Positions 24,045 to 54,443 of a stretch of DNA of 64,000 bases are shown in pieces. A program made the position numbers and the translations under genes. Source of the stretch: Owenia fusiformis (lineage: Eukaryota; Annelida; Polychaeta; Sabellida; Oweniidae); contig CAIIXF020000011.1 in assembly GCA_903813345.2 (NCBI GenBank), forward strand, positions 2,318,571 through 2,382,570, in the 5' to 3' direction. Positions within the stretch are counted from its first letter, which is position 1; every line of letters begins with the position of its first letter. The notes under the pieces are model-generated. The model ran no database searches and had not been told where the DNA came from. It saw only the letters and a list, made by a program, of their open reading frames with translations.

Positions 24045-24080
24045 CATGGGCTTTCAATTAATTCTAGTTGAAAGCCCATG
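24045..24080. mobile_element. Ultra-short palindromic element, 36 bp
   Basis: CATGGGCTTTCAA pairs with TTGAAAGCCCATG. It is flanked by CTAATTA on the left and CTAATAT on the right, an imperfect 7-bp duplication. Confidence 0.7.
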
Positions 24081-24649
24081 CTAATATTGTTAAAATTGTT
24101 TTACACATGGAAAATGAGAAAGTGTTCAAAAACATATAATTATATAAAAAATACTTTGTTTACTAAATAATTTTTAAAGCATGTAGTACATGTTGTAGTT
24201 CATATAAGAGAGTATATCTCAGTCAATTATCAAATTGGATTCTTGTTAATAGGAGTTTAACTAAAAAAGGACCCCTGTTGAACCCCAATACCATTTAATA
24301 AAACTCCAATGGATTTGGCTCAATTTGTACAAATACCAAGAACTGAAAAACTGTCTTTACTGTTTCAAAGTATCGAGGACAATGAGTCTTCAACAGCACA
24401 TAAAACATAACATGTCAAGATCTTTAAAATTATTTGGTTACTAGTGCCATAAATGTTAAAACATTTCAAAAGATTGTGTTCTGTCGTATAATATTGTTCT
24501 GAATAAGTATCAGGAGAGCAACAAGCCTGCACTAGTGTACTTGTAAAAAGGGGGATGTCAATGTGGTAGCCTGACAGTCGTTCCAGGGTATTTCAACAAA
24601 GGGACTTCCTAGGAGGGTATGGGCCAACCTCGGAGTTTCCTTTCAATTT

Positions 24650-26740
24650 TAAAATCATCATCATCATCATCATCATCATATTTAGGAGGGTGAGGTGTAA
24701 TCCTGTGTTATCCTCCCTTCTGATCATTTGTTTGTTACATGACATATTTTTATTGACAGTTTTAATTTCTTTGGTATTTTATTTCCCAAAGACAGTTAGT
24801 TGTGTTGATTATTTTAAAAGTGCCGGGTTGCATCTAATGTGAATCAAAACTGAACAGAATCTAGTGTAGTGTAAACTGGTCATCCTAGGTCTGTCTTCTT
24901 CATGTCAGGGTGGTAGTGGGAGTCGACCTTTGCTTTAAAATCATCTAGCGTCAGGGCAGATACTGCATTTTCTGGGAGGTTGTTCCAGTCGTCTACTATG
25001 CGCTGACTGAAGGACCCTTGTCGTAGGGCGAGATTACATCGACCTTTAAAGAATTTCTGGCTGTGGCCTCTTGTGCTGGTGTGGCTTGGGGTAAAGAAGT
25101 GGGATGATTCTATCTTGTCTATGCCGTTCATTATCTTGTAAACTTGGATTAAATCTCCTCTTTTCCTCCTGTATGTCATTGGGAATAGGTGTAGTTGTTT
25201 TAGTCGCTCTTCATAGGGTAGATCAGACATGCCAGTGATGTGTTTGGTGGCTCGCCTTTGGATTTTCTCGATCTTGTTGATGTCCATTTGGTATCTTGGG
25301 TTCCAGGCTACTGTGCAGTATTCTAGGTGGGGTCGGACAAGGGTTGTGTATAGGGGGAGGAATATATCAGCGTCTTTATTAGAGAATGTTCTTTTGATTG
25401 CACCCAAGATCTTATTGGCTTTGTTGACACAGTTGGATACATGGTCGTGAAACTTTAATTCTTGATCAATGGTCACGCCAAGATCGCGCTCTTTGGTAAC
25501 TTCCTCCAGTGGTTCGTTATCTAATGTGTATTTATGGCTATTGTTGTTGTTCCCCAGGTGAAGGACTTTGCATTTGTTGGAATTGAATTTAAGGAGCCAT
25601 TTGTCTGACCAGTTGACCAGTTCATTTATGTCGTCTTGTAGTTTGGTGGTGTCGTGTTGTCTGGGTATGGCGCTGTAGAGTTTTGTGTCGTCTGCAAAGA
25701 TTTTTAATGTAGATTGGACTTTCTCGGGTAGGTCGTTGATGTAGATTATGAATGCCAGTGGTCCGAGGCAGGAGCCCTGAGGGATACCGCTGGTTACTTC
25801 GGTCCAGTTCGAAAAACTACCATTAACTTTGACTCTCTGTCTTCGTTTTGTCAGGAATGCAGTCAGCCACTTTAAGAGATTCCCCTTGAAGCCGTAGCTG
25901 CTTAATTTTTCTAGTAATCTGCCATGTGGTACGCTATCAAACGCCCGGGAAAAGTCAAAATAAATTACGTCTATAGGGTTGCCGGTATCGAGTAGGCTGG
26001 TCCAATCCTCTAGAACTGTAAGCAGCTGGGTGCTGCAGGAACGCCCAGGCACAAACCCATGTTGGGCATCTGTTATTAGGCCCAGCGTCACCATATGGTT
26101 CACCATTGCGTCCCTGATTATGGATTCCATGGTCTTACACAGAATGCATGTTAATGAAATTGGGCGGTAGTTGCTGGGGGCTGATCTTTTACCCTTTTTA
26201 TGGATGGGCGTTATCTCGCCGTCTTTCCAGATTGGTGGTAGTGTTCCTGATTCTAGGGATTTTGTGAATAGCAGACTGAGGGGGAGGGCTAATTCTTGTG
26301 AACATTCCAGTAGAAATCTTGCGGGGATGTTGTCAGGGCCGGGGGATTTGCAGGCTTTTAGCTTTTTCAGTTTTCGTAGGACTAGTTCCTCTGTAAATTC
26401 CACGGAGTTCAGGGTTTCAGTGGTTCTGGGGATTATTCTAGGGATATTTGTGCCGTCTTCTATAGTGAACATGGTGGCGAAGTAGTCACTAAGGATGTTA
26501 GCCATTTCTGTGTTGACGTCTGTTGAACCTCCGTCTGGTTTGATGAGTGAGCTGATTTTGGGGCGTGTCCTGAGTTTTGAGTTTACGTATGCCCAAAAGG
26601 CCTTGGGATTTAATTTTACTTGTTTGGCTATATCTTTCTCAAATTCCTTACATAGCTGTCTACATAATCTACGGGTTTCATTGCTTGTCTTCTTCGCTTT
26701 CAGGTAGTCTTTGTATGAATTGTAAACCATAGATCTATTT
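24650..26740 (-). mobile_element. 5'-truncated non-LTR retrotransposon, CR1/Jockey-like
   Basis: The span covers the reverse transcriptase ORF (24880-26730) plus a 3' tail of about 230 bp ending in an (ATG)n run, read on the minus strand, at about 24655-24680. A simple-repeat tail of that kind is usual for CR1/L2-type LINEs. The 5' half, including any endonuclease, is missing: an in-frame stop lies just upstream of the ORF. Target-site duplications were not identified. Confidence 0.85.
24880..26730 (-). CDS. LINE reverse transcriptase, 616 aa, uninterrupted
   Basis: The protein is the C-terminal part of a LINE ORF2. An N-terminal stretch has NPKAFWAYVNSKL. The reverse transcriptase fingers and palm follow (CKSPGPDNIPARFLLECSQE, ITPIHKKG, SNYRPISLTCILCKTMESII). 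The first catalytic aspartate lies in YFDFSRAFDSVPH and the strand-switch motif is SGIPQGSCLGPLAFIIYIND. The catalytic box is FADDTKLYSAI. The thumb and C-terminal part contains PHLEYCTVAWNP and DDWNNLPENAV. No apurinic endonuclease domain is present. Being free of stops over 1.85 kb suggests a fairly recent insertion. It cannot retrotranspose alone as it lacks its 5' part. It lies 160 bp from a tRNA gene. Confidence 0.95.
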   Translation of the reverse strand: MVYNSYKDYLKAKKTSNETRRLCRQLCKEFEKDIAKQVKLNPKAFWAYVNSKLRTRPKISSLIKPDGGSTDVNTEMANILSDYFATMFTIEDGTNIPRIIPRTTETLNSVEFTEELVLRKLKKLKACKSPGPDNIPARFLLECSQELALPLSLLFTKSLESGTLPPIWKDGEITPIHKKGKRSAPSNYRPISLTCILCKTMESIIRDAMVNHMVTLGLITDAQHGFVPGRSCSTQLLTVLEDWTSLLDTGNPIDVIYFDFSRAFDSVPHGRLLEKLSSYGFKGNLLKWLTAFLTKRRQRVKVNGSFSNWTEVTSGIPQGSCLGPLAFIIYINDLPEKVQSTLKIFADDTKLYSAIPRQHDTTKLQDDINELVNWSDKWLLKFNSNKCKVLHLGNNNNSHKYTLDNEPLEEVTKERDLGVTIDQELKFHDHVSNCVNKANKILGAIKRTFSNKDADIFLPLYTTLVRPHLEYCTVAWNPRYQMDINKIEKIQRRATKHITGMSDLPYEERLKQLHLFPMTYRRKRGDLIQVYKIMNGIDKIESSHFFTPSHTSTRGHSQKFFKGRCNLALRQGSFSQRIVDDWNNLPENAVSALTLDDFKAKVDSHYHPDMKKTDLG

Positions 26741-26892
26741 TAAATGTTAAGGTTTATATTGTCTATTCAATTTCTATCACTGTTAAACTACATATCTGCT
26801 TAGATGGGCTTATTACCTTCAGAGAAAAGTAATCTATCAAATCATTCATGTTTGAAGATATGGTGTCAACAAAAAAGTTAACAAAAATGTTA

Positions 26893-26975
26893 TACTGCGG
26901 GTGGGGTTCGAACCCACGCGGACATACGTCCATTGGAACTTAAGTCCAACGCCTTAACCACTCGGCCACCACAGT
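26893..26975 (-). tRNA. tRNA-Leu (anticodon UAA)
   Basis: On the minus strand an 83-nt sequence folds as a class II tRNA. The acceptor stem ACTGTGG pairs with CCGCAGT (one G-T wobble) before discriminator A. The A box is TGGCCGAGTGG, the anticodon loop CTTAAGT (anticodon TAA) sits between TTGGA and TCCAA, a long variable arm follows, and the B box is GGTTCGAACCC. No intron. A run of five T on the sense strand at 26882-26886 fits a Pol III terminator. Confidence 0.95.
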
Positions 26976-27503
26976 GCATGTGGAAAGGCGGGAAGTTTGT
27001 TACTATACGAAGAATACTCCTAGTATAATCATATTCAGGCTTAATTTTTTGGTAATTATTTCGGAATTCACAATTATTTCTCAAAAATGACATAAAGCGT
27101 ATCAGTTTTAGTTATTTTCTGTCGTTTTGACGATTTCGTTACAAGGAATGGTCGGTTTCTAAATTTGATCACGTGATCAAATGTTTATGACGTAAAATAA
27201 ACTGAGATAAATAGCAACGAAGATGGCGACGAACATTTGCTAAAATGTGAATTTCTCTAATATCTTTGAAGTATATAAATGAATTATGGAGATGTATACA
27301 TAATAAAGACACAAAATAGCATTCAGAGTATCACCTGGCACAAGGTTCTGTGAAGTAAAAGGAACAATTGAGCTGTAATCGTCGTATAAAGTAAAATATT
27401 CGACCAAAATTTGGACGAAATTCGTCACGAAAATCAGAAAAATCATTGAATCAGGATCTGTACATACAGAATAAGATATCACATAGTTCTACCTCATGGG
27501 GTT
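26976..27503. other. Spacer between tRNA-Leu and ARL13B
   Basis: It likely holds the ARL13B promoter and 5' UTR. No TATA-like element is convincing. No other gene is seen. Confidence 0.4.
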
Positions 27504-30500
27504 ATGTTCAGTCTGATGGGGAAGTGCATATCAAAATCAAAGAGCGCAAGTTCAAAGCGGTAAGTGTTTTTTCATATTTGGCTATATGTATCTAATCCCG
27601 GGCAGCTAGGCCTAGCCTAGGCTAATATCGTACTAAGACCATAGCTTCGATTTCGTCGTATCGAAGTAAACAGTTCAAATAGAGTTGAAGAGATGGTCTT
27701 GGTACGAGATAACATATAGATAACATATTATAATACGTAGACATTACTTCCTGCGAAAGCTATTTGGATTTTGATATAATAGCTTTCCCACGGAGCATTT
27801 GGACAGCTCAATGATCGTGACCTTTGAAATCGAATTAAGTCGATCCGCGGCTTACTTTTGGTCTCTAACTGTGTCTTACATCAGTATCATGAATCCGTGT
27901 AAGTATTGGAGCGCTGGAGTACTTCTTTTTCGATCAAGACTTGTAATTGTTAGTCGATTGAATCGTTTTACTGCCAAATTCCAATATGGCGGTTTCTGCT
28001 CGGACATTTTCGTAAATCTCCGGAGGTTGTCCGAACCTTACTAATTCTCAAAATTCATTTCGTTCGTTGCGTATCTCGCACCTAGCAAACCGCCATATTG
28101 GAAATAGGTCTGTAAAACTTTAACTCGATGAACAATTTACAAGTCTTGATTGAAAAAGAAGTACTCCAGCGCTCCAATACTTACACGGATTGATGATACT
28201 GATGTAAGACACAGTTAGAGACCAAAAGTAAGCCGCGGATCGACTTAATTCAATTTCAAAGGTCACTATTGATCAGCTGTTCACTTCTCCGTTTGAGAGC
28301 CATAAGTTTCAAAATCTAACATGGCTCTCGAAGTGAGTAACGTAGACAGAGATGTCCAGCTCTGGCTAGTCCAACAAGTTAACCTAATCTTGGCCCTCGT
28401 GTCTTGGCCTTAGTTATTTCTGACAAGCAGTGTAGGCCCTAATTGCCGTTCGGACGGACATTGCCTGCAGACTTGCAAACGGACCGATGAAAACTGAAAT
28501 AACCTGGTCCGTTTGACTTAGTGAGATTTAGATGTGAATTTTCCAACCACCGGCTTTGTGTCCGACACTTGAAATTTGAAAATGACCAAATGAAAAAAAA
28601 TGTTTGCACTAGTTTTGAAATATATTTTCACTTCCATGACAATAGCAGTGTAAAGATACTTTTGAGAGCAAGTGACAATAGTCAACAAGTTTGCTCATTT
28701 TAGGTTCTAATTTTCTGAGTTGACAGAGTGAAGCTATTTGGCCCATCATAGTGTTTTAATGGCAAAACTGACCAATTTCAACACATCAATCATGACTTTG
28801 TGCTTTTACTACTGATTACAAGTATACAGGGTGTCCCGAAAGTATGGGGGCCCCCCTAGGCAGACATATTCCAGTGTCCTCATAGTATGTATCATATATC
28901 ATTTTAAAGCTTATCCAAAGTTACATTGATTTGCCAAGTATTATGGTTTAACTCCCAAATGGGAAAAAGTTACAGTCATTTTAAAAGTTAGTGTTTTGTC
29001 AAAATAAAGTTCAATTTTACACCACACTACTAGTGTATGAGACCCCCCTTGGCTATGTTAACAGCAGCAATTATTTTCAAATATGACCTTAAAAGCCCTT
29101 CAAAAAGGGATGTGGAATTTCATAACCCTCTTAAAACCTGTTAAGGCACTTTAGAAGAGTTTCCTTAGAGTTTCTACCCTCACCATTCTCTTTTTCCAAC
29201 TCAATATCCATCCGACCCGAAAAGAATTGCTGCTGTTAAGATGGCCTGGGAGGACACATTGACTAGTGATTTGGTGTAAAATTGAACTTAATTTTGACCA
29301 AACACTAAATTTTGAAATGCCTGTAATTTTTTAACATTTGAGAGTTGAACCATGATACTTGGCGAATCAATGTAACTTTGGATAAGCTTTAAAATGATAT
29401 ATGACACATACAATGACAACACTGGTATATGTCTGCCTAGGGGGGGCCCCATACTTTCGGGACACCCTGTACATATGTTTAACTAAATTCTTAAATTTCT
29501 TCTTTGTTATTGATTTTGAAATGACCAGTGGATTTTGATACGGACCAGTTGATTTTGAAAAAGTGCTGGTCAACATGACCAGTGCATTTTGAAATGGACT
29601 GACAAATTTTGAATTTTACCAGTCCGTTTGACCAGCAGGAGATACTTCCTTAGGGCCTACACTGCTTCCAAGGTCTTGCTTTCCGGCTTTTCATCAGATA
29701 TTCAAATCTATGATTAAGGTTTTGTTTATAGTCTTGAATTAATCTTATAAATACACTATTTGATCTCGCTAACTATTATAATCAGAGTGGTGTACAAGTA
29801 ACAATGATATAAATATTTATAGAAAAATTTATCAAGTGTCATACAACAAAAGAACAAATAATGTACTAAATAAATATATATTTCATCAAATGAATGTAAA
29901 TAAACATAAATGTCCCTATATTTCATCAAATAAACATATATAAACATAAATATCCCTATATTTATTCATTAAATGATGGGGTCTGTCATTAAATAGGTAA
30001 ATGAAACATTTTCAGGAATATTTAATTTCATATTTATTTTATTTTTTTCCAGGAAAGTTGTCATTGGAGTGTTTGGCCTAGATAATGCCGGAAAAACAGT
30101 CACCAGTAAAGCATTACAAGGAGGTTAGTTACACTGACGATTATAAGCTATAAGGTTAAAACAGCAGAATACCAAAAATTGTAGAGGGTCAAATAATCGC
30201 GTATGAATATTTAGAAACTTCCTAGGAGGTCACACTAAAAATAAGAAAAAACCTAATGCACCATTTCAAATGTTTGCTTGAAACAAGCCATCCGGGGAGG
30301 GATTGGAAAATTTGGAATTAAACACAATTAAGTATTATCCCAGGGGTTGGGATTTGACAAAGTACTTGTCCCGGGAGTAACATTCAGGTTTACATTGCTT
30401 GAAATGCATATTCCCCGTAATCGGAATTTGACCAATTATTATTACTCTCAGGATAGAGGATTTGATGGCTCAATTATCATTTTGATCAATTTGAATCCCC

Positions 30501-36743: not shown

Positions 36744-36846
36744 AAAAATCCTAGTCTTTTGTATTAAGTACACAACCAGTGCATTTAATGCAAGTTTAAA
36801 AAATATCAAAAGCGTGTTTTAAAAATTATAAAAGTGAATCATAATA

Positions 36847-36920
36847 CAGGGTGTCCATTTGTCCCTATAATATAAATATAAAGTCTGTGTAAAGTGAATG
36901 GAGATGTAATGGACACCCTG
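36847..36920. mobile_element. CAGGGTG-family MITE, 74 bp
   Basis: It begins CAGGGTGTCCATTTGTCC and ends ATGTAATGGACACCCTG, flanked by TA. It lies about 100 bp after the ARL13B stop, probably in the 3' UTR. Confidence 0.85.
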
Positions 36921-39593
36921 TATTTGTTATGAATAAACCATAATCCAAAACTAGAAGATTTGTATCGTGACATCATGTATTTGTATTTAGTAAATCGAAG
37001 TCATTTGATGTCTGTTTAGTTGAAATTTTGTGTAAAATCAGCAATTAGAAATAATCATCACTAAGCAGCAGCTAATAGCTAATATCCCCAAAATTATGAA
37101 ATCTTAGCACCAAATTAAATCAGTTTATGAGTACAAATGAGAACTTTGTTTATAATGATTGTCTAACAACAAAACTATGTAACCCTGTAATTAACTGAGT
37201 CATTACTTTTAAGTGGAATGCATTGTTCTACAGGACATCATGTAAATGAACCAGACAAAGTACATCATGTATACAGAAAAATACAATTTTTTACTAAAAT
37301 TGTTTTCAGTTCAAAAGAAGCTTAAAAGCCTCTTTGGCTCCAATATTTGCCTCATCTACTAACATGTGCCTCAGCTATTTACTTTAGCCTCAACTTAGTC
37401 CCTGTAACTGGTTGCTCAATATCTGCAGTAATTATATATCTGTAATTTGTTAACATATTTTACAAGAGTAAACCATGAGCTATGCAGGCTATGTGTAATA
37501 TCAGACATAAAATATGTCTCATGTCAGAGATTACACAATGAGAGTGTTGTAAAAGATGTGGACTACATTATGTTTATACGAAATAGAGTCATTTTGAATA
37601 CAGTAGAACCTGTGTAACTGGTACGACATTTGCATCTCGGAAAAGTGGTCCATTTACAGAGGTTCATTTAAAATTGAGTCTCAGAGTCTTGAGCTCTACT
37701 TGTGGAGGTGTTTCAATTATGGAGGAGTTCTTCTAAAAGTGTTCCAATTGACTTTCTTTTTATTGTAATTAGAATACTCAATGCTGTGATATGAGTACAG
37801 TGCAATGATTCATAAATTATCCAAATCTTTCAACGTAAATGTACAAAATTGTTCCTCAATCTACTCATCTATGTTTAACTTTTTTGTTATCATTGTATGA
37901 ACATTTTTGATGAAACTATACTAGATTAGTATCTTCAATGTCTGACAATGAAAGTGCATCCCTTAGCTATATATAAGGTTTTAGTACATGTATATGAATA
38001 CTCAATGTATGAAAAATGATTACTCAATGTATGAAAAATGATTACTCAATGTATGAAAAATGATTACTCAATGTATTTCTACCATCTATCAATTGTTGTT
38101 ACGATCAGATTGTGTTCAAAGTATAGTTTGTGGTTAGGCTGGCATAGAACAGAATGTAATTAATGTATGAACCGTCCAAACACTTTCGAAACAGAATTCT
38201 GCAATTGTCCGATGTTCCTGATATTTCAGAATTTATCATTTTATTTTATGATTGTGTACTCAATCTACTGGGAAAGAAAACATACTTGAAATTATATACA
38301 GTATTTAATTGAGTGATACCTGAACTGAAGAGTGTTACATAAGAGTAATATACATATCACTGCAGTACAAGGCCAGTAGTTTAATTCATTGTTCATTATT
38401 TCTCATGAGGTGTTTTGCTTATGGAAACGCAACATTGATATTTCTGAAAATTGACAGTGATTTAGAATTCACATGTGTCATTGACTCAAGGACAATTGGC
38501 TCCCTTAATCGAAGTCGATGTTTTCCAACAATAAAAATGTCGTTATTTTCTGAAATTATAACCGATTATAAATCCAAATTTTGTAGCATGACATCCCCAA
38601 ATAAGGGACATAATATCGATGTTGCACTCTGGGAGCCAATCCTCCTTGTTTGACTGGTAGATTTATGTAGTCATGGTGATATATATGATAAATTTTGTCA
38701 TAGTGAATATATTAAGTCAGTGATTTGTATTATGACATCAATGTTGTCATAGTGATTTATATTGCAACATCAATGTTGTCACGGTGATGTATATGACAAA
38801 ATTAATGTAGTGTCATAGCGATGTATTTTACATCAGTATATAATGAATCACTCTAAAGCTCATCAAGCCAGCATTTAAAAAAATGTAATGTACATATATG
38901 TAAATATGTACATCCGTGTATGTTATTGAATTCTTGTATATCAGTGTAAATAGTCTTTAGTAAAAAAAAGTAGTTTTTACTTGACTCTGTAATCGTGAAA
39001 TAAATAGATATTTTCTTATCTTAAAGTACTAAATCTGATGAAATACATAAAACTATAAAACATTATAAGATTTGTCAGTTCTATTGTATTTCCTGTCTTT
39101 ATCTTATTACTCTCAACAAAATACGTTGCACATTGTCCACTGCATCGTATTTTGGAATGGGGTTAATGTGGACCTAGTGCAGCATATTTTGGAATAATAT
39201 TAATGTTGACCAAGAGTAATACATTTTAGAATAAGTTTTAAAGTGGTCTGCCTTGTGATTTATGAAAATGTCTAAAATTACCCTTGGAATGAATAAGATT
39301 GTGTATCAGGTCACCCTTCTAGCCCACCCGAGCAAAATAATATCACATCTAAAACTTTTTAAGGAAAATACATATTTTGAAGAATCCCGATCCAATCCCC
39401 TTTTACATGAATCAAATCCACTCGATCCACCTTTTAATCTTTACCAGTTTAAAAGGAAACCTTGCCTACAGGCGAGAAAGAGGACATGTTGTCTTTCCCA
39501 TCCACAATTTTTTGTTATCGTTGCCGCAAAATTTTGCAAATCGCCTTGACGTAACCGTCATGGTATAACAGGGTGATATGAATTTAGTTTAAC
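36921..39593. other. ARL13B 3' flank and intergenic sequence
   Basis: A small triplicate of ATTACTCAATGTATGAAAAATG-type units lies at about 37998-38075. A pogo/Tigger-like segment near 37607 begins ACAGTAGAACCTGTGTAACT. No gene is seen. Confidence 0.45.
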
Positions 39594-39634
39594 CATGGGC
39601 TTTCATTCTTTCAACACTCTCTTGAAAGTCCATG
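39594..39634. mobile_element. Ultra-short palindromic element, 41 bp
   Basis: It starts CATGGGCTTTCATTC and ends TTGAAAGTCCATG. Flanks are GTTTAAC and GCTTAAC, a 7-bp duplication with one mismatch. Confidence 0.75.
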
Positions 39635-42150
39635 GCTTAACACTGTGATGGATAGAATTTGAATAGGATATAATTTAAAACCTTAACAAGTATTTAAAAA
39701 TAGATTTACTGCTCCCAAATCCTTCCTTATTCAGTTTTGACACAGGTTATCTCTTAAGTTCTAATTGTTAATTTTAAAAAATTCAGCTATTTCAAACAAC
39801 GTCGTGTATTTTGGAACTCCACGAATAACTTTGTTGTAGACTCATCTATTTCAAATCATCGAGAAATGGAGTGAACCGGCTAAAGTATTAGAATACGTTT
39901 AATGCGTTTTCGGATTTTATAACGAATTTGATACAATTTTTTTGTAAAAAGACTGGATTTTGACTTAAAAAGGGTACTTTCACACAGTAAAGCATGGTGC
40001 ATCAAATACATGTAATATGTCAAATAAAAGGTTAACGGAGGTGAACATGTTCTACTTTATTTGGCAAATATTGTATTTCTCTAATAAAAAGAGCAACTTG
40101 CATGCGTTTCATACATCAATAAATGTCCAAATTATTCATAACGGCGCATTCTGTCTTTGTGTTTTGATTTGACGGACACAATAAAATCTTATTTCTCGCT
40201 TTTGGCATTCAACTCCAATACTTCAGTATTACGCCGGGTCATTTTGTACCGTTGCGGAAGGGTTACCAGGCTTATGGACAGGTCCGCCGTGGTTGGTTGT
40301 GTGATTGCCGCATTAAACATGCGGCAAAGCACGTGAAGTCTGTGTCGATCACTGTACCAGTTGCGCTCCATGGATATGGCCCTTGATTGATTGGCGAACT
40401 GGATCAATTTTGAGTAATCGAAAACACATCAAATAACTTCATTGGAAAGTGATGTCATTTGGCATCACACTTAGTTCTAAATGTATACACAAGCACACCC
40501 AATACACAAAAACTGCCCAAATAAGACTGTAGTTGACTGTGTCCAAGGCGAATAACTAAAGCGAAATCACCAATTTGATAAACAGAGGAAGTGAATTTGA
40601 CTGACCGGGACGGAAAACACTTTTAAAGTGAAGTTGGAACACTATAGTAAGTATCATCATGATACACCATGACATCTCATTTCTTCTCAGCCCTTTCAGG
40701 TGAAACAGAAAGATGCTATGAGTATCAGAATGAGTAAGTATGGTTAAAACAAAACTAAAAGTGCGACATCTTTAAATTAGGACCTTCGTTAATATAGCGA
40801 ATATTTGAACTCACGAGTGTAAAGGAAGGACACTACATGTATATCCAATCCATTCTGTAAAAACACTGCCCTTTATGTAATCGACTCTGATTGCTTGACA
40901 ACAATTTAATGCGAAGATGGTTTATATATATTTCATATCATTGTTTTTGTCATTTTTTGTTTTACTGCAATTGTTTTTTGTTCCTTTCTACTAATTCTTG
41001 AAAATGAAATAAAAAATCTTTCCAAAACTTACTTGTTGGGACAAGACAACATTTATAACATTTCAGAATTTGTTGATGACTTTGAGAAATATGTGTACAA
41101 TTCAGTTCGCCATATCGATAGGGAAATCCACCAAACCCCAAACCGTGCAAATGAAAAATGTTTAGACACATTTGAGAAGCATGCTGATGTTTTGCGATGT
41201 AACGAAAATCATCAAAGACATGAATTGCTGGTATTAACAATATTCACAATATTAAGATTCAATCATTATCAGGTTTTGATTTGCTGGCATTCAACAAAAA
41301 ATTTCGGTTGCCAAATTTATTGAGGAGAGTGTACACATATATTGGTGCATGGTTGACCAATAAATTGTTATCGAGATTCAAAAACGTAATTGGCATGATT
41401 GAGTGTTTTATGTATTGATTGAGTGTTTCTTGTCATGATTGAATGTTTTACGTATTAATATATTGAATGTTTCCTTTACTTGTTTCTTGTCTTCTTTTCA
41501 TGATTGAATGTTTTGATTTGAGGAGGAGTGATTTATGTGCCGCTTGCACAAGATTCGTTACAAATCAACGAGAAATGAAGTGAGTCTGAAGTCAGAGAAT
41601 ACGATTCGTTCAGTTTTCTGACCTTTGTTCTTCTCAAACTCACTCGCAACTGTACTCAGAACGGTTGCGCTAGCCACGCATAATTAGTACTGAACGTAAT
41701 CCGATCAATGTGCTGAAATCACGATAGCTTATTTCCCTTCCATTTTATTGACCGATCTGGACATATCATTATTAGTTGTTTTCACTCATATTATAGTAGC
41801 CAATTGCCCATTTACATTTCTTTCAGACGCAATTGAAATTTCATATTAGCATATATACAACAACGTTCAAAATATTTTTTTTATATGCTTATATTGCGAT
41901 GATTTTCTTTCCTGATTGATCTTGAATATTATGCCAAACATGTACTTTCTGTACCTTGCTTTGTGACTACTGTTATTATTTGCAAGACCTCATTTTTGAG
42001 TTCATTGCGTTTCCTCAATCAAAATGTAAACTTCGAGTCCAACTAAAGTTAGATTTTATATAGGGTTAATTAATTAAAATACATTTACATAATGTGTATT
42101 CAGGCAAATAATTATAACAACTACATTATTTTTTAGCAGTACTGACACCT
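39635..42150. other. Intergenic region with unassigned open frames
   Basis: Two open frames look slightly more protein-like than background: minus strand 40189-40407 (72 aa) and plus strand 41033-41323 (96 aa, containing ISEFVDDFEKYVYNSVRHI). I recognise neither. They may be exons of unknown genes or decayed transposon ORFs. Confidence 0.35.
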
Positions 42151-42660: not shown

Positions 42661-42821
42661 TGACCCAGAAAAGACTTTTGCTCCTTGATTTAATTTATTT
42701 TGTTATATCAATTTAAACTATAATAAATTTATTTCAACTATGAATAATTAATAAAATATGAAGTTTGTTTGTAATTGTGAAGTTTGTTTACAACCAGTAA
42801 GATAAAAGTTCTTAGCGTCTG

Positions 42822-42971
42822 ATGGACTATACAATGGACCGATTGGGCAAATTCTCCATCTTTCATCTTCCTTCACCAAAACCAAAACCTGATGGGAAGA
42901 GATGGGAATTCACGGGGCGATATTCAGACGATGATGCAGAGGACGATAATTTTTTTGTATCGGACAAATGA
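42822..42971 (+). CDS. Small ORF of 49 aa, unknown
   Basis: From ATG 42822 (or 42834) an ORF encodes a polar, acidic-ended peptide with LPSPKPKPDGKRWEFTGRYS and DDDAEDDNFF. The composition looks protein-like. A possible splice acceptor (CTTAG) lies just before it, so it could be a terminal exon. Not recognised. Confidence 0.3.
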   Translation: MDYTMDRLGKFSIFHLPSPKPKPDGKRWEFTGRYSDDDAEDDNFFVSDK

Positions 42972-43266
42972 ATGATGGAAACATCTTATAAGAAACATCT
43001 ATATTTGATCCAATATTGTTTTTACATAACTCTAGTGCACTTGCCGCGACATCTATGAAATGATATTCGAAACACATACTTACACTCAGGAGCTACTCAC
43101 TTCTTCTGATCAATGGATAAAATGAATGAATGGCCCAACCTCGATTGAATGGAAAAGATGCCGTCCCTGTTATCACGGATCAAATGAATTAGTTTTAGTG
43201 ATGTTAGACCTTTTATCCATTGATCGGAGTAATACCTCGTCACGTGACAGTCGCTAGATAAACAAA

Positions 43267-46200
43267 ATGGCGACCGACGTGGCAGGACACCGGTGGAAGT
43301 TGACGATTTATTTTGTATTATTTATGTTAATCGCTACGCTCGCAAGCTGTGCAAAAGATGCGAAAACGAATTCGGGTAAAAAAGGAAACAAAAGAAATCT
43401 AAACATCGCAAGCGATACCAGGTAAGTCACTCGAAAATGAATAAAATTGGAAAAACTAGACTAGACTCTATCAATTTTTTATTTTTTTATTCAATTTTCA
43501 AATCATGGGCATTCAATAGATTCTATCACAGACAAGGGAACAAGAGTTCATCCCCCTCCCACTCACTATGTATTAGGTAAAAGAGATTTTTTTTACATTA
43601 GCTATACAGTGACTGGGGGGGGGGGGGTGCCTGTGGATTCTATTCTATAGATTTGAAAGATATGGCCGAGTTTCTACGACTAGATGTAGAGGACATAGGG
43701 TTAATCTCGGACACGGGGCATTGTCGGACGATCTTCAATAGTTCTTTGTTTTATATGGTTTCTTTATTGAAACTTTGTATTAGACACATCATATTATAGA
43801 TGTGGTGCTATATATTGTAAAAATTCTAGTTTTGTCCCAGATTTTCACCTGATACCAAGGGTTTGTCTGGGAATGCCCCGTGGCTGAGAATGCCCCTATC
43901 TCCTCTAATAGATTGGAGTGGGTTGGTTGGACGATCTCGATAGATTACAACAAATACACATAAAACTGATATAAGATCTTTAAAAGTTTATTATATCAAA
44001 AATATATTCATAATATGCTCAAAATATGAATCTGAATAGAATAATTATATAAATACCAAAATTGGATCTGAATAAAATAGTTCAGATATGAATATCAAAT
44101 AATTATATAACCTTTCCTGACATAAATCAAATCGAAGCTCAAATCACATTTGAAATCACATTGAGAATCACAGTGGGAATCACATTGGGAATCAAAAGTT
44201 AGCCAAACTAAATTGACGAACCCCGACAGCAATGTATCTTCTAGGTTTTTACCATTCCACTTAATTTGCAGAATCTGCTAGTTATAAAGTGAAAATTTTG
44301 CCCATCTCTAGCAACATAACAGCGTCTTGTTACGTCTCGTTACGGTTAAAAAACGATTTCAGAAAAAATGTCAAAACAAAGCGATCCTATATTTATAATG
44401 TACACGGGAAGAGTTGTGACGTAATGCTTTATGATTGGTTGATTTCCCCAAAATATCAATGCTAGATTCGAATTGACCAATCACAGGTCTGTTTTTACAT
44501 GATTACTTTCTTTTTAGAGCGGCTGTCATGAATAATTCATTGAGTTCCACGAATTGAAATGTTGTAAACTTCTGACCCTCTAAGGCCAAAGTAAACTATT
44601 TTCTAATATAAGGCCAAAGTAAAAAGTAGGTTTTATTTATATTCTCTGATTGTATGGTAACTACCAATATCAGATTCTAGTTCTAGAGCCCATGTTCTAT
44701 TTAAAGCCCATGTTCAAATCTACATGTAGCTTTAGTCAAACTGTTTTGAAATTCCATAATTTTCACAATGAACAAATAGATTTTAAACAGGAAGGGGTGA
44801 TTTAAAAATGTCTTGCTATCCACTTATATCACGGGTGTTAAAACACGAATATACCATGAGCACATGCTTTGAGGATCCGCGTTGTTTGAACCTATCGCCG
44901 AGCACACTTATACATTAAGACCCGTTACACAGTCATGCCGAGCAAGCTCATTGGATCATCGGGTCTGCTTTACCCCCGTGTACGAGGGGTGATCCAAAAG
45001 TCTTGGACGCCCCGCTCTAACTTTGCTATTTTCTAATATAATTGCATAAAACTTTCAGATAATAAAGATCAACATCTTAACAACTTTGTGTATAAGTTTC
45101 AACAGAAAATAATTTATTTTAGCTTTTTGGTAAGTATTTTTTAACACTTGGTCCCTGCCACCCGGAACGGTATTTGAATATAGCAAATCGCGTCACAACT
45201 GTTATAATATGGCAAATACTTTAGGTGCAGGTGCACAACCTAACACCAGTCATGATATGAGAGAATTTCCGATTTTCAATCTCAGTGTCATCTGCCATCA
45301 TCATCTTCACATATTAAGACCTACTTTTCAACATATTTTTCATGAATTTGAACACATCTTTCATACCGCTTTACCAATGAATGGAAGACATTTATGAAAT
45401 CGCCATTCCTTATGTGATACAAATGGTGCTGGAGTGCCACTCTAAACCTCATACAATGAATAAAAAAACATTTTTTCAACCCCCCTTCTAACTTGGAGAA
45501 AAGGAAGACAATCACACTGAGCCATATCTAGACTGTATCGTGCATATAGTAGCTGCTAAAGGTCAATAATAGAATAGAATACCTTGTAGTATTCTTTGTT
45601 CCAGTTTTATTTCTTTCATGTTCTGCATTTCAGCAGCCATTTTGGTCAAAAAGGATACCAGAATGAGGGTTGCTTGTCTGATGTCATTTTCTTAGAATTT
45701 GACAAAATATGGCCATTTTTATATGTGACAATATATATAAAACACAATTAACTGGTTGCCTAGTAACAAAGTAAGTAAACTAACATGGTTTAACATTCAA
45801 AATTCAAATAAAGAGAGTGCTCAAGACTTGCAAAACAAGTCAAATGGCGGCAACATTTAAGGCTGAAAGTTGTCATGTGCGAATACCGTTCCGGGTGGCA
45901 GGGTCCCTGTATTAAAAACTATCTAGAAAACTACATAAACCATATCATTTCTCCATGAAATTAATACACAAGGTAGTTAAGATGTTATTCTTTATTTTTG
46001 AAAAGTTTAAAGTAATTTTATCAAAAACCAACAAAATTAGAGCAGGGCGTCCAAGACTTTTGGATCACCCCTCGTATATGCTGCTGGATTAATCTCTTGT
46101 GCTTTTTATCACCATGGGCTTTCCTATTGAATCTATTGTATGTCCATGTTATCACTAATTACTGGCTCGTATGTTTATTTTACGATGAGCCCCATCTATA

Positions 46201-49200
46201 TTTCAGATTCCTCCTTTACGATTGTGCAATGCATGTACGTTTATTCTTCATTGAGCCCCATCTATATTTCAGATTCCTCCTTTACGATTGTAACCCTGGT
46301 GAAGGTTTTAATTTACGCAGAGATGTCTACATTCGTATTGCGAACCTTGTGAAAAAACTCAATACAATTGAACCATGGACCCTCGTTCTGCCACCATGGG
46401 GACGATTATACCATTGGAAATCAAACGTTGAACAGATGAAGATTCCCTGGAGCCTATTTTTCGACATAGAGAGTTTAAATGCCCACATTCCAGTCATAGA
46501 GATGGAGGAATATATCTCAGTCATAGGAAAACCAGAAGTTGAAGAAATGTATTACCTACAAAGGTTTGTCATGACTTTTTTCATTTAGTGCACATGGCTA
46601 GCTTAGCCTAGCTAGCAGCTTTAGTTTAAACATTGAGGCCAACTTTTACAGAAAATGTTTTTCACAGTTCTGGACTAAAGTGGAAGTAAAGGCCCCATAG
46701 GCCTTGAAGTATCATATCTTTTTTGATATGAGATTTGCCACATATTCAAATTTGCCTTGCCTACTTTCAATGCACTCAATTGCTGGAATTACACATGGCG
46801 TTTTACAAAGCATCTTCGGTTTTAACCAGGTTTAAGAATTAGATGTAATCACGATTGCGGTTTTACAAAAGCGCTTTTCTAAAACTCCAAGAACCCTTGT
46901 CACTAGTAAACGGCATTAGTCGTTAGGGGCTTTAAGTGTACAGTGTAATACCGATCGGTTTTGTAAGACGCCTTACCTGGGTTTTTACTAGTTTTTAACA
47001 TTTGCCCTAAACGAAATATGACCTCATTTCACACTGCTATCTGACTATATCTAAATTGAAAAATGGATGATGGTCGCCAGGTCACATCGAAATCAAGTGT
47101 TATCTTCAGAGAATATGTACATATTTTTCTTTTACCTTTTTATTATGTTTTCTCATGATTAAAAAAGATAAATAAAAATTATGCAATGTCACGCGTTTTG
47201 GCAAATTATGGAAGATCAGTTTTGTCTTAGATGCAAAAAGAATACATTTACAGGAGATGTACACATACATGTATGCTGGATATTATCCATAACTACATCG
47301 TTAAAAGTGCACGAAAGGCGTTTTAGAAAAAACAGGTGTAATTCCAAAATATAATTCCTAAGACGCTTTAGAAATGTTGGTGTAATCAGAATGGCGATTT
47401 TATAAAGCGTTTTCCACTAAAACGTTTTAGCGGATTTTGTGGTGTAATTCCAGCAAATGGCTATGCCTTTGTCAGCTATAAAATCCTTCTGATTTTACAT
47501 TGTAGCAAGTAATCTCATATTACTGGTCATGCCATTCAATCTTGCTTAGCCTTGTCTCCTATCAGCCTATCTGAATATAACTTCATCCAAAGTTGCAAAC
47601 TTAAAACCAAATTAAACATTTTAATACAGGCAGCTGAGTATTATTTGCATTGGTATGTTTCCCATCACATTGATCAGATAATATAACAATTTGCTTATGG
47701 CAGTGATCTCCCCAAATCTTTTATTAGATTGCTGCAAAATTCTCATTTTCACAATTCAGACCAAAATTGATCAAAATATGCCAATTTTTCATGATTTTTC
47801 TCATTTTCAAGTGGGTGCAAATGGATTTTTGAGTGGGTGCAATCCTATTTTCAAAATCTCAGCTGGGTGCTGCGCCCACTTGCTTTAATGCTGGGGAGAT
47901 CACTGGGATCAGTAAACGTTTGCACTTGACTTAGATAAGGTCAATATATTTGATGTGATGTACACCAGGTTAGCAGTGGTATTCAAAGAAGGGAAGAAAG
48001 TCACTTATGTGTTGTTGAAACTATTGAAATTGTAAAATTGTAAACTATTGAAACTGTGAAATTGTTAACTATTGAAATTGTAAACTATTGAAATTGTAAA
48101 ATTGTCAACTGTTTATCGAAATTGTATTTCTATTGACCTGATCCCTTTCATAATATAAACTAATATGATATGTTAGTGGAATAGAAAAGGCCAAATTAAG
48201 AAAATCAGAATTCCTAATTAATGGAAGGGAAACTGTAATTTCTGAATTATTCATAAATCAAAACTATTGATTGATGGGAAAAATAATTAATTGCATCAAG
48301 ACAAATATGTGTAATACCTCAAATGGTGTTTCACTCACAGAGGTATTCTACACATAGGGTTTATTTTACAAAAGTTAATTGGTGTGCTGTTAATTGGGTT
48401 CAATAATGAACTTGAAGTCTTATGTAAGATGAGATATAAAGCGTTTTATTCCAAACACAAATATTATGACATACACATGTCCGACATCTCAGATCTAGCA
48501 ACCCCATAGGCAATTGGTTAAAACACATCACGTGGAACAAAACTAGGTCACTAAACACGTGGCCTGATAAACAAAAGATGTTGATGAGTGAATATATCAG
48601 CTAACACTACAATTGGTCACTTGTCTTTAAAGTGTTTCACTTACATATGTTTTACATATGCTTCATATGTTTTACATTTTAAATCCAAGGTATTCAGAAG
48701 GCTTTACAGTAGTTTTGCAAACAAGGAAAATCCACATGGAATTGGGTACTTGACCATTGACATAGAGAGGAATTTTTAGAACTATAAAGCTATTAATTTA
48801 TTATCACGGTTGAGATCATTAAATTATAGATAATTCCCAATTCAAATACAACCAAGATATACCAATTTACTATATAAAACAAGTCTTAATCAATTTTTCA
48901 TATTTCCAGATTTAAAGAAGGCTGGAATGGTGGCAAATGGGAAGAAAAATTGGAAAGAAGAGAATGTCTCGAGAACTGGGGATATGCACTAGGTAAATAC
49001 AAAAGTACAATAAAACATGTCTAAGTAGAACACCTTTTGAACATCTAAAAAGGTTTACACTTGAGAGGTGTTCCACTTATAGAGCTTCATTTAACATAAA
49101 GTCAGTTGGTCTTGAGAGCAGGTCAAAAGTCTGATCAGTTCTTGGAATACGTATTTCCTTTCTATGACGATAATTATCCTGATACAGTGTTTGTCAACAA

Positions 49201-51610
49201 AGTGATCGAGATAGCAGTACGTTTCCCCGATCAAGAGACTATCAGACGTATGATTATTGCCTTTAACATGAATTGCTATTTGCATAATTTGCCATTTGAA
49301 TGAACTGCCATTTGAATGCCATTTGACTGAATTGCCATTTGAATGAACTGCCATTTGAATGCCATTTGACTGAATTGCCATTTGAATGCCATTTGACTGA
49401 ATTGCCATTTGAATGCCATTTGAATGAACTGCCATTTAAATGCCATTTGACTGAATTGCCATTTGAATGCCATTTGACTGAATTGCCATTTGAATGCCAT
49501 TTGACTGAATTGCCATTTGGATGCCATTTGACTGAATTGCCATTTGAATGCCATTTGACTGAATTGCCATTTGAATGCCATTTGAATGCCATTTGACTGA
49601 ATTGCCATTTGAATGCCATTTGACTGAATTGCCATTTGAATGCCATTTGACTGAATTGCCATTTGAATGCCATTTGACTGAATTGCCATTTAAATGTCAT
49701 TTGACTGAATTGCCATTTGAATGCCATTTGACTGAATTGCCATTTGAATGCCATTTGACTGAATTGCCATTTGAATGCCATTTGACTGAATGCCATTTGA
49801 CTGAATTGCCATTTGAATGCCATTTGACTGAATTGCCATTTAAATGCCATTTGACTGAATTGCCATTTGAATGCCATTTGACTGAATTGCCATTTGAATG
49901 CCATTTGACTGAATTGCCATTTGAATGCCATTTGACTGAATGCCATTTGACTGAATTGCCATTTGAATTTATTACGAGAACATATGGAAACTCTGAATTT
50001 TTGTTTGTTTCTAAAAAGTTGCTTCAATCATATGAAGGAAGTGGGGTTAAACATTAATTACACTCTGTATAGCCTTATTGTATTTGATGGTTGATCCTTT
50101 ATTAAACCCCAGACATACAAACCAGATCAATATTGTCATGAATAATCAATGACAATTTCAGCTGTTATGCCTGGAAAAGTAGCTATATAATCAACTTAGA
50201 TTACATAGTTTGTGCTATTCCCTAAACAGAGTAGAAATTTGCAGATTTAGAAAAATTGAAAAGATAAATTGTGAATGATTTGTAAACTGTACATATTTTT
50301 AGATTAAGCAAAGGTCAAACATTTATACAATCACCTAAACTCTTATTGTACTATGACAATGATACGTATGTTGATCTGAATTTTTGTTTCTTTTTTCTCA
50401 ATTATTTCATCAAAGTGAAACATACAGATTTTAACAGATTGAATAAAAAGTTGATGGGTGAAGAAGGAGAGGGGGGGGGGGCTATTCAAGACTGTTATAT
50501 TTTGTGCATTTGACTATACATGTAGGTTTGGTAATGAGAATTTATCATTGTAATAGATTGATTTGAAATTGCCACGGCCATTTCTTGTATGTCTGACTAT
50601 TTGTATTATGCGTATGTAAATTGTAAGGTGGCCATTTTGGATTTTAGATTCACTATTGTTCACCATATTTGTTGACTCTAATCCCTTTGGTATCTTAACT
50701 CATAATTTAAGGGATTGGACAAAAGGGTGGAACATTGCAGTGTGCCACCCGTTCGATCATCACCGTTAAATTTTGAATAATTTTTCCAGGTGATGACAAT
50801 AACTGGCACGGCTGGTTCTGGGGGTACAACAAATTCTCCGCAAAACATTTTGAATGCCTCTCAGTCCAGATGGAGGCCTGTAGCATGACCACTTTCCTTA
50901 CCAAAGAAACTCGGGCAAAATCGGTGATGCTACACCGAGGAGAGCAGCTAATTCATGGTGCATTTGATTCATGGTCATCTGAATGGTGGTCGGCACGTCG
51001 CAGTTTACGATTCGCAAAACATTTACGAGAAGTAGCAGCAGATTTCAGGGCTAAGTTTCTCGATTCTAACGATGAGAAAGATAATACTTTATTTGAGGAT
51101 GATTGGCGGGGAATGTATCGAAAGCCTGGTGAAGCCAAAGGCGGACCTTACGTTGCGGTTCATTTGCGTCGCCGTGACTTCTTGTACAGTCACGAAAAGG
51201 AAGTACCATCTATTGAAGAATCTGCCAATCAACTTGAAAAAATTCTCGATGAACAAAGGGTGACAAAATTATTTGTTGCAAGTGATATGCCACGATCTGA
51301 GTACGATGAACTTAAACATCATTTAAATGGCTACCAAGTTCATCGTTTCATACCTGATTCTGATTTGCTTGATTTATACAAAGATGGCGGAATAGCGATA
51401 ATTGATCAAATCATATGCTCGCATGCCAAATATTTCGTAGGAACATCTGTTTCAACATTTTCATTCAGAATCCATGAAGAACGTCAAATATTAGGCTTTA
51501 ACCCTGATATGACCTATAATAGACTTTGTGGAAAAGAGGAAGGAAAATGTGACCAACCGTCATCTTGGCCCGTGAAATATCCAACCAATAATAAACATAC
51601 AGAGCTTTAA
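43267..51610 (+). CDS. POFUT2: GDP-fucose protein O-fucosyltransferase 2, four exons
   Basis: POFUT2 adds O-fucose to folded thrombospondin type 1 repeats in the ER. Exons are 43267-43421, 46273-46563, 48910-48992 and 50790-51610; phases agree and the product is 449 aa (human about 429). Exon 1 holds the signal peptide ([18 protein letters not shown]). Exon 2 has [19 protein letters not shown] with the catalytic-type Glu at about residue 62, and [10 protein letters not shown]. Exon 4 has the GDP-fucose binding HLRRRDF at about residue 300, [34 protein letters not shown] and the tail [15 protein letters not shown]. The sequence ends KHTEL, which resembles but does not equal a KDEL-type ER retention signal. 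The exon 2 acceptor is duplicated 66 bp upstream in frame, and intron 3 carries a 27-bp minisatellite. Confidence 0.96.
43422..44982. other. POFUT2 intron 1, left part
   Basis: Includes a G-homopolymer near 43615-43627 and AT-rich sequence. No gene is seen. Confidence 0.45.
44983..46074 (-). mobile_element. Degenerate mariner-type transposon, about 1.1 kb
   Basis: The ends CGAGGGGTGATCCAAAAGTC and their inverse are flanked by TA. Similarity between ends continues inward for about 200 bp to CCACCCGGAACGGTATT. A minus-strand frame at 45321-45515 ends [20 protein letters not shown], which resembles the C-terminus of mariner transposases (…W.KC...G.YVEK). The catalytic residues are not visible, so it is non-autonomous or decayed. 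It lies in POFUT2 intron 1. Confidence 0.75.
46113..46148. mobile_element. Ultra-short palindromic element with exact 7-bp duplication, 36 bp
   Basis: It starts CATGGGCTTTCC and ends ATGTCCATG. Both flanks are TTATCAC, an exact 7-bp match. The inner palindrome is weaker than in the other copies. Confidence 0.75.
46165..46290 (+). repeat. 66-bp tandem duplication of the POFUT2 exon 2 acceptor and exon start
   Basis: GAGCCCCATCTATATTTCAG followed by ATTCCTCCTTTACGATTGT occurs twice, with AG at 46205-46206 and 46271-46272. The offset is 66 bp, a multiple of three, and the frame stays open from the first acceptor through the second. Confidence 0.93.
46779..47457. mobile_element. Inverted-repeat element, about 680 bp, in POFUT2 intron 2
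   Basis: The left end TTGCTGGAATTACAC is inverted at the right (GTGTAATTCCAGCAAA). Sub-terminal copies of GCGTTTTA..AAAGC occur in both halves. No transposase. Confidence 0.72.
47458..48909. other. POFUT2 intron 2, right part
   Basis: Contains a simple tract of ATTGTAAACTATTGAAA-type words at about 48014-48120. No gene is seen. Confidence 0.45.
49295..49970. repeat. 27-bp minisatellite in POFUT2 intron 3, about 24 units
   Basis: The unit is GAATGCCATTTGACTGAATT plus GCCATTT. Since 27 is a multiple of three, several long open frames run through it on both strands (for example repeats of ELPFECHLT); I treat them as artefacts of the repeat. A few units are shortened. Confidence 0.95.
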
Positions 51611-54011
51611 CCCTTTGAATACCATAGCGTAACTCAATTTTTGCTTATTTTGCCAATACTATCTCAATATATATGCAATATTTCATGTTCATCTCGATAA
51701 TATTATTATGTAGACCAATCTTACATTATATTTTTTCTGTTTGAGCTGAGCGCTAGGGTGAATCTAGTAGATAAAAATATTGGTTTCAGTCCCAGTGAAT
51801 ACATTTTCTGATACTCCCTATAATGTTAGTAGCCCATATTGACTGAGTTCACATTTAATTAGTGAAAACAAATGCATATTGCAAAGCAGACGGCTCATGT
51901 ATATCAGCTTTTTATTTATTCAGCAGATTGAAGCTGATAAAATATACATATATTCAATTGCCATGACAACTGTACAAACTTTGAAACAATATGCAGAATT
52001 CTATTCAAGACAATGTATTCAAATGTCAATGTTGTGATTTATTTATCAGAATCTCATTCAAAAAATATTGACTGTTATTGTATTTATCTACATACTTAAT
52101 CGCATTCATTATTATGCCAAATGTACAGTAAAACTTGTGTTGTAGAACATGTTTGGTACTGTAGATACACTTATTTTGAGGCTACTCAATTTGTCGGATT
52201 TGCTCAATTTCAAATATTGGCGGGTATTTAATTTGGCGGATTCAGGACTGACGTTTAATTTTTGTCTATGATTATGTTATTTGGACAGGTATTTACTAAG
52301 CTATTTTCTGTATTTCCTTTGGAATAATACAGAATTGATGACACATTGACAGGAAATTTCTGAACTGCATTTGACAAAAATTCCAAACTGAAATTTGATG
52401 GATTTTTAATTTGGCAGATTTTCTGAATACGCCAGGCAAATTAAAAGGGGAGCCAAATTAAGTGTATCTACAGTACCTTAAAGTAGTGCTCCACTTCGGA
52501 GGTGCTCTATTTACAGTTTCATTTTACATTCAGGTAATTGGGTTTCAATGTTCCATAAAAAGTGTTCCATACTCAAGTGTTCCACATACAGAGGTGTTCC
52601 ACCTACAGAGGTGTTCCACTCTAAGGGCTTTACTGTATTCATATAGCATGATTTTTATGCAATAGTTGAAATGTCATAATCATTAAAATACCATGTAAAA
52701 TAGAAAGACAGAGGCGAGAGTAAAATTAACAGGAAATAACATACTCTCCCCGTGAAAAGTTTAGCAACTTCCAGACTTGAAGTTTGCATGAAAATGACAA
52801 AATCCCAAATATTCAGAAATGGGTAATAAGCACTGAATATAAAAAATCTGTTGGTAAGCCATTACATTCATGGTTGAATGTCAGAACATTCATGGTTGAA
52901 TATCAGACTTTCCATGGGTTGAGCTACCTTAATGGTCGTAGGAGATTTTCACGGATTAATAAATAAGAGTACATAAATAGTGTAGCTAGAAATCATAAAT
53001 CAGCATATTCATGCTTTGATTTCTTTCTTGACTGTTATATGTTTCATTACACAAATTGTATATACGTTTAGCCAAATTCATGTACAAATGTGCACAATGT
53101 ACTTTAAACTCACAAAATAATGTTTTATATTGGTGCTATTGACTGATATGCATGTACACTGTATATACATGTACATTAAAATCAATATATTCTTTACATA
53201 TGAATACTATTGAGATTAAAACTTACAAATATGAACACTTTTAATCCTGTATTTTAGGTGTTTCATTTATTTGAAATCCCCTTACGTTAATGTTGTAACT
53301 CGTTTGTAAATCTTTTTTATTTATTTATGCAAAGGATATCACAGTAAAACACAATGTTCAGAAGTCGTGAGTTGTAAAATTGTAAATCTATTATTAGGAC
53401 TTTGGAAAGTTGATCGTTTTTTTCGACATTGTTTATAATATTGTCAGTTGAGGCTGAAGTAAGTAATTGATTGAGAAACTTTAGAAAGTCTTCATGACAT
53501 TGCTGTTCTTAGATTAAGCTATTTGATGTATTTGAATAGTCCTTTGATGGCTTTACGTAGGTAGTTATTTTATGACTTGAGATAGTCATTTGATGAATTT
53601 AGATAGTCATTTGATGGCTAACAGCTGTAGACAGTCATTTGATGGCTTTAGGAAGTTTATTGTGGTAAAGAAATTCCATAGAACTGTTGTATTTTATTTA
53701 CTATTTATGTATCACATTTTAAAAATGTACAATAGAGAAACAAAAAGACTTATCTAGGGGAATCAGTTTTGACCCAGAAATTATGGGTGAACTTTTCACT
53801 ATTTCAGAAATATCTTCCAATTTCATTTACTTTGATAATAATGCAAAGGATATTCATAATTACTGTCATAAATCAAGCCAATAATACCCTAGTTTCTTTG
53901 GGCCACAAAAAGGGGCCAGGATTTGTTGAAAAGTTAAAAAAAAGTTCTATTGCCACTCATGGATATATCATAATCTACAATTGTAATCAAGTTCATATTT
54001 ATACAAACATA
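51611..54011. other. POFUT2 3' flank and intergenic sequence
   Basis: Contains a fragment related to the AGTGTTCCAC/GGTGTTCCAC repeat at about 52480-52630 (also near 49030-49080) and a small GATAGTCATTTGATG repeat at about 53550-53645. No gene is seen. Confidence 0.45.
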
Positions 54012-54443
54012 CAGGGCGACCAGAAAAAAGTGGATCGCTGTTTTTTTTCATTTAACTTCCACATAAATACCATGACCAGGTTAATTTTAGATGGATATAT
54101 GGATATATCATAATCTACAATTGTAATCCAGTTCATATTTATACAAACATACAGGGTGACCAGAAAAAAAGGATCACTGTTTTTTCATTTAACTTCCACC
54201 ATGGGCTTTCAATATTAGAAAGCCCATGCTTCCACATAAATACCACGACCAGGTTCATTTTTGTCACAAATGTACATTAGTCAATGCATAACATTATGTC
54301 AAAGAGTGAAATGTCAATCTCTTTTCATTTTTATTTCATGCCTATTTCAGGACATGCTCCAAATGTGCTTCCTGGCACTAAAGATAACTTGGATTTCACG
54401 TGCAGTGAACTGGTCATTGGTCAACTTTTTTTTGGTCACCCTG
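54012..54443. mobile_element. CAGGGTG-family element with a tandemly repeated left end
   Basis: The left end CAGGGCGACCAGAAAAAAG recurs as CAGGGTGACCAGAAAAAAAG at 54152. The right end TTTTTTTTGGTCACCCTG closes the element. The 54012 and 54152 units are paralogous over about 90 bp, and only the second contains the 29-bp palindrome. Confidence 0.75.
54200..54228. mobile_element. Ultra-short palindromic element with exact 7-bp duplication and an empty-site paralogue, 29 bp
   Basis: CATGGGCTTTC, a 7-nt loop, then GAAAGCCCATG. It is flanked on both sides by CTTCCAC. The sister repeat at about 54050-54070 reads TTTAACTTCCACATAAATAC without interruption, giving the pre-insertion site. Confidence 0.85.

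Follow-up and report, generated by a model that had tools for sequence, protein, structure and literature searches.

The short palindromes that begin with CATGG and end with CCATG in the genome of the annelid Owenia fusiformis are, very probably, a genome-wide record of the excision of P-superfamily transposons followed by repair of the broken sites by end joining. This reading of the sequences takes in four palindromes of 29–41 bp in the window (the whole 64,000-nucleotide stretch of DNA that was analysed, C11:2318571-2382570), which we call scars.

Genome-wide copies and target duplications

In the whole 498-Mb Owenia fusiformis genome, the pattern CATGGGCTTTC-N0-30-GAAAGYCCATG is matched 1,063 times on the forward and 1,066 times on the reverse strand, nearly every palindrome being counted on both strands in these totals. 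The pattern written backwards has no match in the genome, and a scan of viral contigs with the palindrome pattern gave none. Reading covered the first of the matches listed, which all lie on contig C1, together with their flanks; once copies sharing identical 15-bp flanks had been collapsed to one, 45 distinct copies were left, 25 to 47 bp long.

The 7-bp flanks of these copies are identical in 32, and differ at one position in five, at two in four, at three in one, at four in two and at five in one. A 7-bp duplication with at most one mismatch is thus present in 37 of the 45. Random pairs of 7-mers taken 30 bp apart at the same loci are identical in 13 of 10,600 cases. The original prediction asked for flanking 7-mers to be tabulated over genome-wide copies, and attributed the palindromes to a transposase that makes 7-bp staggered cuts in its target; the exact duplications support this source. 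Target duplications of 7 or 8 bp are also a trait of the P superfamily. Since the palindrome pattern requires some 11 nt at either end, more heavily trimmed scars are missed: two scars found by another route (L081 and L091) retain just 5 and 7 nt on one side.

The 32 exact duplications, counted unsymmetrised, have G in 16 and T in 24 at positions 1 and 2, and A in 25 and C in 15 at positions 6 and 7; positions 3 (T in 10) and 5 (A in 15) are weak. The preferred target is therefore palindromic, opening with GT and closing with AC (GTtNaAC), which is a second trait of the P superfamily. Over 40 sites the motif extends to T.A/GTTNAAC/T.A (slashes at the edges of the duplication), in a table symmetrised by adding reverse complements; the palindromy itself is taken from the unsymmetrised counts only.

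Joints and end types

The interiors of the palindromes are not common to the copies: both their length and their sequence vary among the 45, and some simple joints recur, such as the 32-bp joint of L042, L043 and L044. The sides of the palindromes are of four types, which diverge after CATGGGCTTTCAA (into CTAG, TTAG, GAGA or CAGA) and are joined in pairs. Judged from these sequences, each palindrome consists of two transposon ends that face each other head to head and meet at microhomology or across filler. In L002, a GAGA end of 17 nt meets a CAGA end of 17 nt with nothing between them; L023 has AT between two 17-nt ends, and in L008 two 17-nt ends overlap at a palindromic CTAG. In L010, L022, L041, L045 and L046, one end has 17 nt and the other is cut back to 11 nt or less; there are also copies with 17 nt on one side and 11–12 nt on the other.

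Exactly 17 nt are found on at least one side in 37 of the 45 copies and on both sides in five, counts which alone prove no limit, because the list of ends was itself taken from the scars and limited to 17 nt. Neither side has 17 nt in eight copies, some of which have a long filler (L028, L032). L035 and L047 have one extra nucleotide past nucleotide 17, which we read as filler and which is also compatible with a slightly variable cut.

The original prediction took the 29–41 bp palindromes to be ultra-short MITEs which move themselves, with a transposase supplied in trans. Their terminal inverted repeats, their 7-bp duplications and their thousand or so dispersed copies would suit such elements. 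However, the copies of a MITE inherit their interior from one short element, whereas here no interior is shared and the joints differ from copy to copy; moreover, AAGAGA-type ends stop at 15–18 nt, and longer copies with the same ends exist (see below). For movement, deleted P elements also reportedly depend on about 100 bp or more per end: the minimum is given as 138 bp and 216 bp for the two ends in Drosophila, and some 100 bp per end is suggested for Anopheles, in the available text of PMC1562414. We consider it highly improbable that the palindromes are themselves mobile. The P-derived MITEs of Anopheles gambiae described in that text resemble the Owenia parents discussed below in being non-autonomous, and have P inverted repeats of 27–31 bp, compared with a common end of 28 bp in Owenia. 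Unlike the scars, which keep at most 17–18 nt per end, they have 8-bp duplications and, at each end, P sequence that stays below 100 bp.

Two observations concern the neighbourhood of particular copies. A 26-bp copy, CATGGGCTTTCAATTGAAAGCCCATG, occurs with identical flanks in L026, L019, L030, L031 and L049, two copies lying 4.7 kb apart in L026; the identical flanks indicate a scar amplified inside a larger repeat. L050 contains a complete scar and, a few bases away, a second, one-sided CAACAGA end of 17 nt, possibly as the result of two excision events side by side.

Parent ends and the 17-nt limit

The plain 17-mer CATGGGCTTTCAAGAGA has 286 + 280 matches in the genome and none in the control. 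All of its 24 listed places on contig C1, which extend up to 14.8 Mb, were read. In L086, L087 and L093, CATGGGCTTTCAAGAGA is followed directly by AGGGTATGCAA, which gives the left end of the parent; L086 and L087 are alike over hundreds of bases. The right end of L086, read inward, has CAACAGA followed by AGGGTATGCAA, up to its break. The inner part of this opposite end, TTGCATACCCTTCTGTTGA, ends 342 bp from the left end; it fits the CAGA type and then breaks off. L094, an extension of L087, has a decayed opposite end about 529 bp from its left end. These opposite ends point to a non-autonomous parent of about 0.35–0.53 kb, both ends of which continue past nucleotide 17. A parent that is intact, with two ends and a duplication, was not recovered: L086 and L094 are truncated or decayed at the right. 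Likewise, no opposite CATGGGCTTTC end is present in the 20 kb upstream of each of the solo ends near L008 and L011, and L095, 8 kb from the L093 end, has neither a matching right end nor an open frame of at least 110 codons. Longer copies with the same ends thus exist (L086, L087, L093); the longer autonomous element that the original prediction proposed to look for was not found at the transposase loci read.

In the scars, the match to the parent ends at the junction of CATGGGCTTTCAAGAGA and AGGGTATGCAA, that is, at 17 nt. Compared with the parent, 31 distinct AAGAGA-type ends retain 15 nt in one case, 16 in one, 17 in 16, 18 in ten and at least 28 in three. Hence 28 of the 31 stop at 15–18 nt and none at 19–27. 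This holds for the upper side of the distribution, the lower side being biased by a seed of 15 nt and by the fact that part of the sample was picked by the 17-mer; in addition, several rows (L074, L075, L077 and L080) come from copies of a single repeat and cannot be taken as independent. Where 18 nt match, position 18 has the A of the parent, and its G at position 19 is absent from all of these rows. Five CAACAGA-type ends retain 15, 16 and, three times, 17 nt. For the AACTAG and AATTAG types, the limit of 17 nt is derived from the scars themselves. A third P trait, that up to 17 nt of each end are left behind, is therefore found for the AAGAGA type, as a sequence pattern only.

This ceiling bears on another origin, internal deletion by interrupted gap repair, in which synthesis aborts after excision. 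It is a known route, proposed for defective copies of P and Galileo, and would leave both ends and the duplication in place (PMC4168063, in the text available). Any length of end would be expected from it, yet the AAGAGA-type ends cluster at 15–18 nt and leave the range 19–27 empty, so that we hold this origin to be very unlikely.

By our reading, the 24 places on C1 comprise 13 scars with a 7-bp duplication (at most one mismatch), two of them edges of one larger repeat (L074), three long ends, and eight places that are unclassified (L011, L078, L079, L080, L082, L084, L085 and L090). Scars thus outnumber surviving long ends by about 4:1 among the AAGAGA ends of this one C1 stretch, the unclassified places being set aside. 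In the tandem array of L085, one unit has GTTTCAC, a 17-nt end and CTTG, while two neighbouring units are empty at this site (GTTTCACTTG). A 17-nt end at a site which is empty in the neighbouring units argues for excision scars; the place has no second duplication and is kept as unclassified in the count.

The pairs of ends in L074–L077 were considered as parent elements and rejected, as they are copies of one larger repeat with scars at its edges. This dispersed repeat (L074, L075, L076 and L077) has about 290–490 bp between two inverted AAGAGA ends, and its copies share flanks beyond the ends.

Transposase genes

The TNP-like RNase H domain (PF21787) has 13 matches in the Owenia genome and none in 14 control genomes. 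Open frames of 446–699 amino acids contain seven of them, and four (L055–L058) score identically. We count these P-type matches in favour of a P-superfamily source, and infer that the enzyme is one of the P-type transposases of this genome. One of the four, at C11:2203561-2203971 (L057, L067), lies about 115 kb to the left of the window.

In contrast, the scans around these genes count against excision scars, since they linked none of them to the ends described here. At seven of the 13 loci, about 5 kb on each side contain no 13-bp inverted repeat with a 7- or 8-bp duplication and no CATGGGCTTTC-like end. The 1.5-kb flanks of all 13 contain no exact CATGGGCTTTC, and the end motif with up to two mismatches gave scattered weak matches only. 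L067 and L068, which have tandem repeats of about 220 bp, agree at about 99% through most of the 10 kb, so that their edges may lie outside the stretches read.

Two further searches gave no match. PF12017 has none in the Owenia genome, which is uninformative, as it also has none in all control genomes and reaches just 24.5 bits on the Drosophila P transposase itself. No Owenia name appears among the 120 matches listed, out of 227, when the Drosophila P transposase is compared with a protein database.

The scans around the transposase genes would agree with scars left by a transposon of another superfamily which also makes 7-bp duplications. However, the 17-nt offset, the CA...TG ends and the palindromic GT...AC target are jointly P traits, and we know of no other superfamily which leaves 17 nt per side. 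A source outside the P superfamily is thus unlikely.

Proposed mechanism and comparison with known systems

Excision of a P-superfamily transposon and repair by end joining would account for the scars as follows. The transposon would insert preferentially at GT...AC palindromes and generate a 7-bp target duplication. The parents seen are non-autonomous, and would be moved by a transposase acting in trans. On excision, one strand would be cut at the very end of the transposon and the other 17 nt inside, as the Drosophila P transposase does; we infer both the stagger and its strand polarity. After such a cut, both sides of the break would carry 17 nt of transposon end as a 3' tail. End joining would reconnect the tails, in some cases with trimming, short base pairing or added filler. 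The product would then be the duplication, at most 17 nt of one inverted end, the joint, at most 17 nt of the other end, and the duplication again.

At each transposon end, the Drosophila P transposase cuts the two strands with an unusual stagger of 17 nt (PMC7776569; PMC10983969, as their available text has it), and a 17-nt 3' tail remains on each broken end after P excision (PMC2895639). Chan, Yu and McVey described joints from Rad51-deficient flies in 2010, with an 8-bp duplication, at most 17 nt per inverted end, microhomology and partly templated insertions (PMC2895639). The Owenia scars resemble these joints in layout, having a duplication, at most 17 nt per inverted end, microhomology or filler, and ends that begin with CATG, and we count this resemblance in favour of P excision. 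The two sets differ in that the Drosophila joints were produced by repair at a single site in the laboratory and have 8-bp duplications, whereas the Owenia scars occupy about a thousand natural places and have 7-bp duplications. A frequent class of Drosophila joints loses most of the tails through a longer microhomology (PMC2895639, Table 1, in the text available); such a class would escape the palindrome pattern used here.

Galileo, a member of the P superfamily in Drosophila, also has 7-bp duplications and a palindromic target, GTANTAC compared with GTtNaAC in Owenia (PMC2775673; PMC4168063). This parallel counts in favour of a P-superfamily source. The likeness concerns the duplication and the target only: unlike the scars, Galileo has long foldback-like ends, and the copies described in the available text of these papers are elements or fragments.

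Excision footprints are known, to our knowledge mostly as single cases from laboratory crosses. Among the leading results of a literature search, no paper deals with P elements in Owenia or with P excision scars across a genome. In the present assembly, about a thousand natural candidate scars can be counted, and most of those read have intact target duplications. From their sequence one can read at what offset an unstudied P-type transposase cuts; they also test the conservation of the 17-nt stagger far from insects, and they form a large sample of how the annelid germline joins broken ends. We lean, with some reserve, towards the broader view that 17-nt staggered excision is an ancient property of the P superfamily, seen in an annelid from scars alone; that the assembly serves in effect as a natural assay of excision, with about a thousand records of how germline breaks were joined (with microhomology and filler, in the manner of polymerase theta); and that similar scars have probably been overlooked in other animals, or annotated as tiny MITEs. 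The scars also carry a warning: a hairpin with a clean target duplication need not be a mobile element.

Palindromes of the window

All four palindromes lie where the original prediction placed them, and their 7-bp flanks are, as it claimed, exact in two cases and near-exact in the two others; the palindromes are given without strand. They fit the layout proposed above. Scar 1 (24045–24080, 36 bp) consists of an AATTAG-type end of 16 nt, an ATT filler and an AACTAG-type end of 17 nt. Its flanks are CTAATTA (24038–24044) and CTAATAT (24081–24087), with two mismatches. Scar 2 (39594–39634, 41 bp) has one end of 12 nt, the filler CTTTCAACA and an AAGAGA-type end with one mismatch; it lies between GTTTAAC (39587–39593) and GCTTAAC (39635–39641), which differ at one position. 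Scar 3 (46113–46148, 36 bp) has one end of 11 nt, the repetitive filler CTATTGAATCTATTG and a decayed partner end, between exact copies of TTATCAC (46106–46112 and 46149–46155). By eye, the longer fillers of scars 2 and 3 both look copied from end sequence. A coding match to an O-fucosyltransferase (PF10250) lies downstream of scar 3, which probably sits in an intron. Scar 4 (54200–54228, 29 bp) has an AATTAG-type end of 14 nt and a shorter partner (11 nt exact), between exact copies of CTTCCAC (54193–54199 and 54229–54235). Three of the four fit the genome pattern. With a genome mean of one per 470 kb, this is a density about 20 times as high, which makes the window a rich spot.

The window was also scanned for CA...TG palindromes of 20–59 bp with 9-nt arms (at most one mismatch) and a 7-bp duplication (at most one mismatch). 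Three places were found, 2434–2471, 39594–39634 and 54200–54228; the palindromes at 24045 and 46113 miss these thresholds, by the duplication and by the arms respectively. The same scan found no place in five mononucleotide-shuffled windows; on this and on the backwards control, a chance origin of the palindromes was rejected. The palindrome at 2434–2471 (38 bp, no strand) is of the same style as the four CATGG copies and of another sequence: it runs from CAAGGACGTCTATCTC to GAGATAGACGTCCTTG, between ATACAAC and ATTCAAC, and has an additional TATCTC where its two sides meet. A second P-like family probably left this scar.

The palindromes were also considered as structured RNA, a reading that was rejected: Rfam at its gathering score gave just one tRNA in the window. 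This match (26893–26975, minus strand) lies beside a reverse-transcriptase frame (24880–26730, PF00078) and is possibly a tRNA-related repeat. At 62132–63142, the window has a tandem array of units of about 92 bp, each with CATGTGCTTTA or CATGTGCTTTG, whose likeness to the end motif is probably due to chance.
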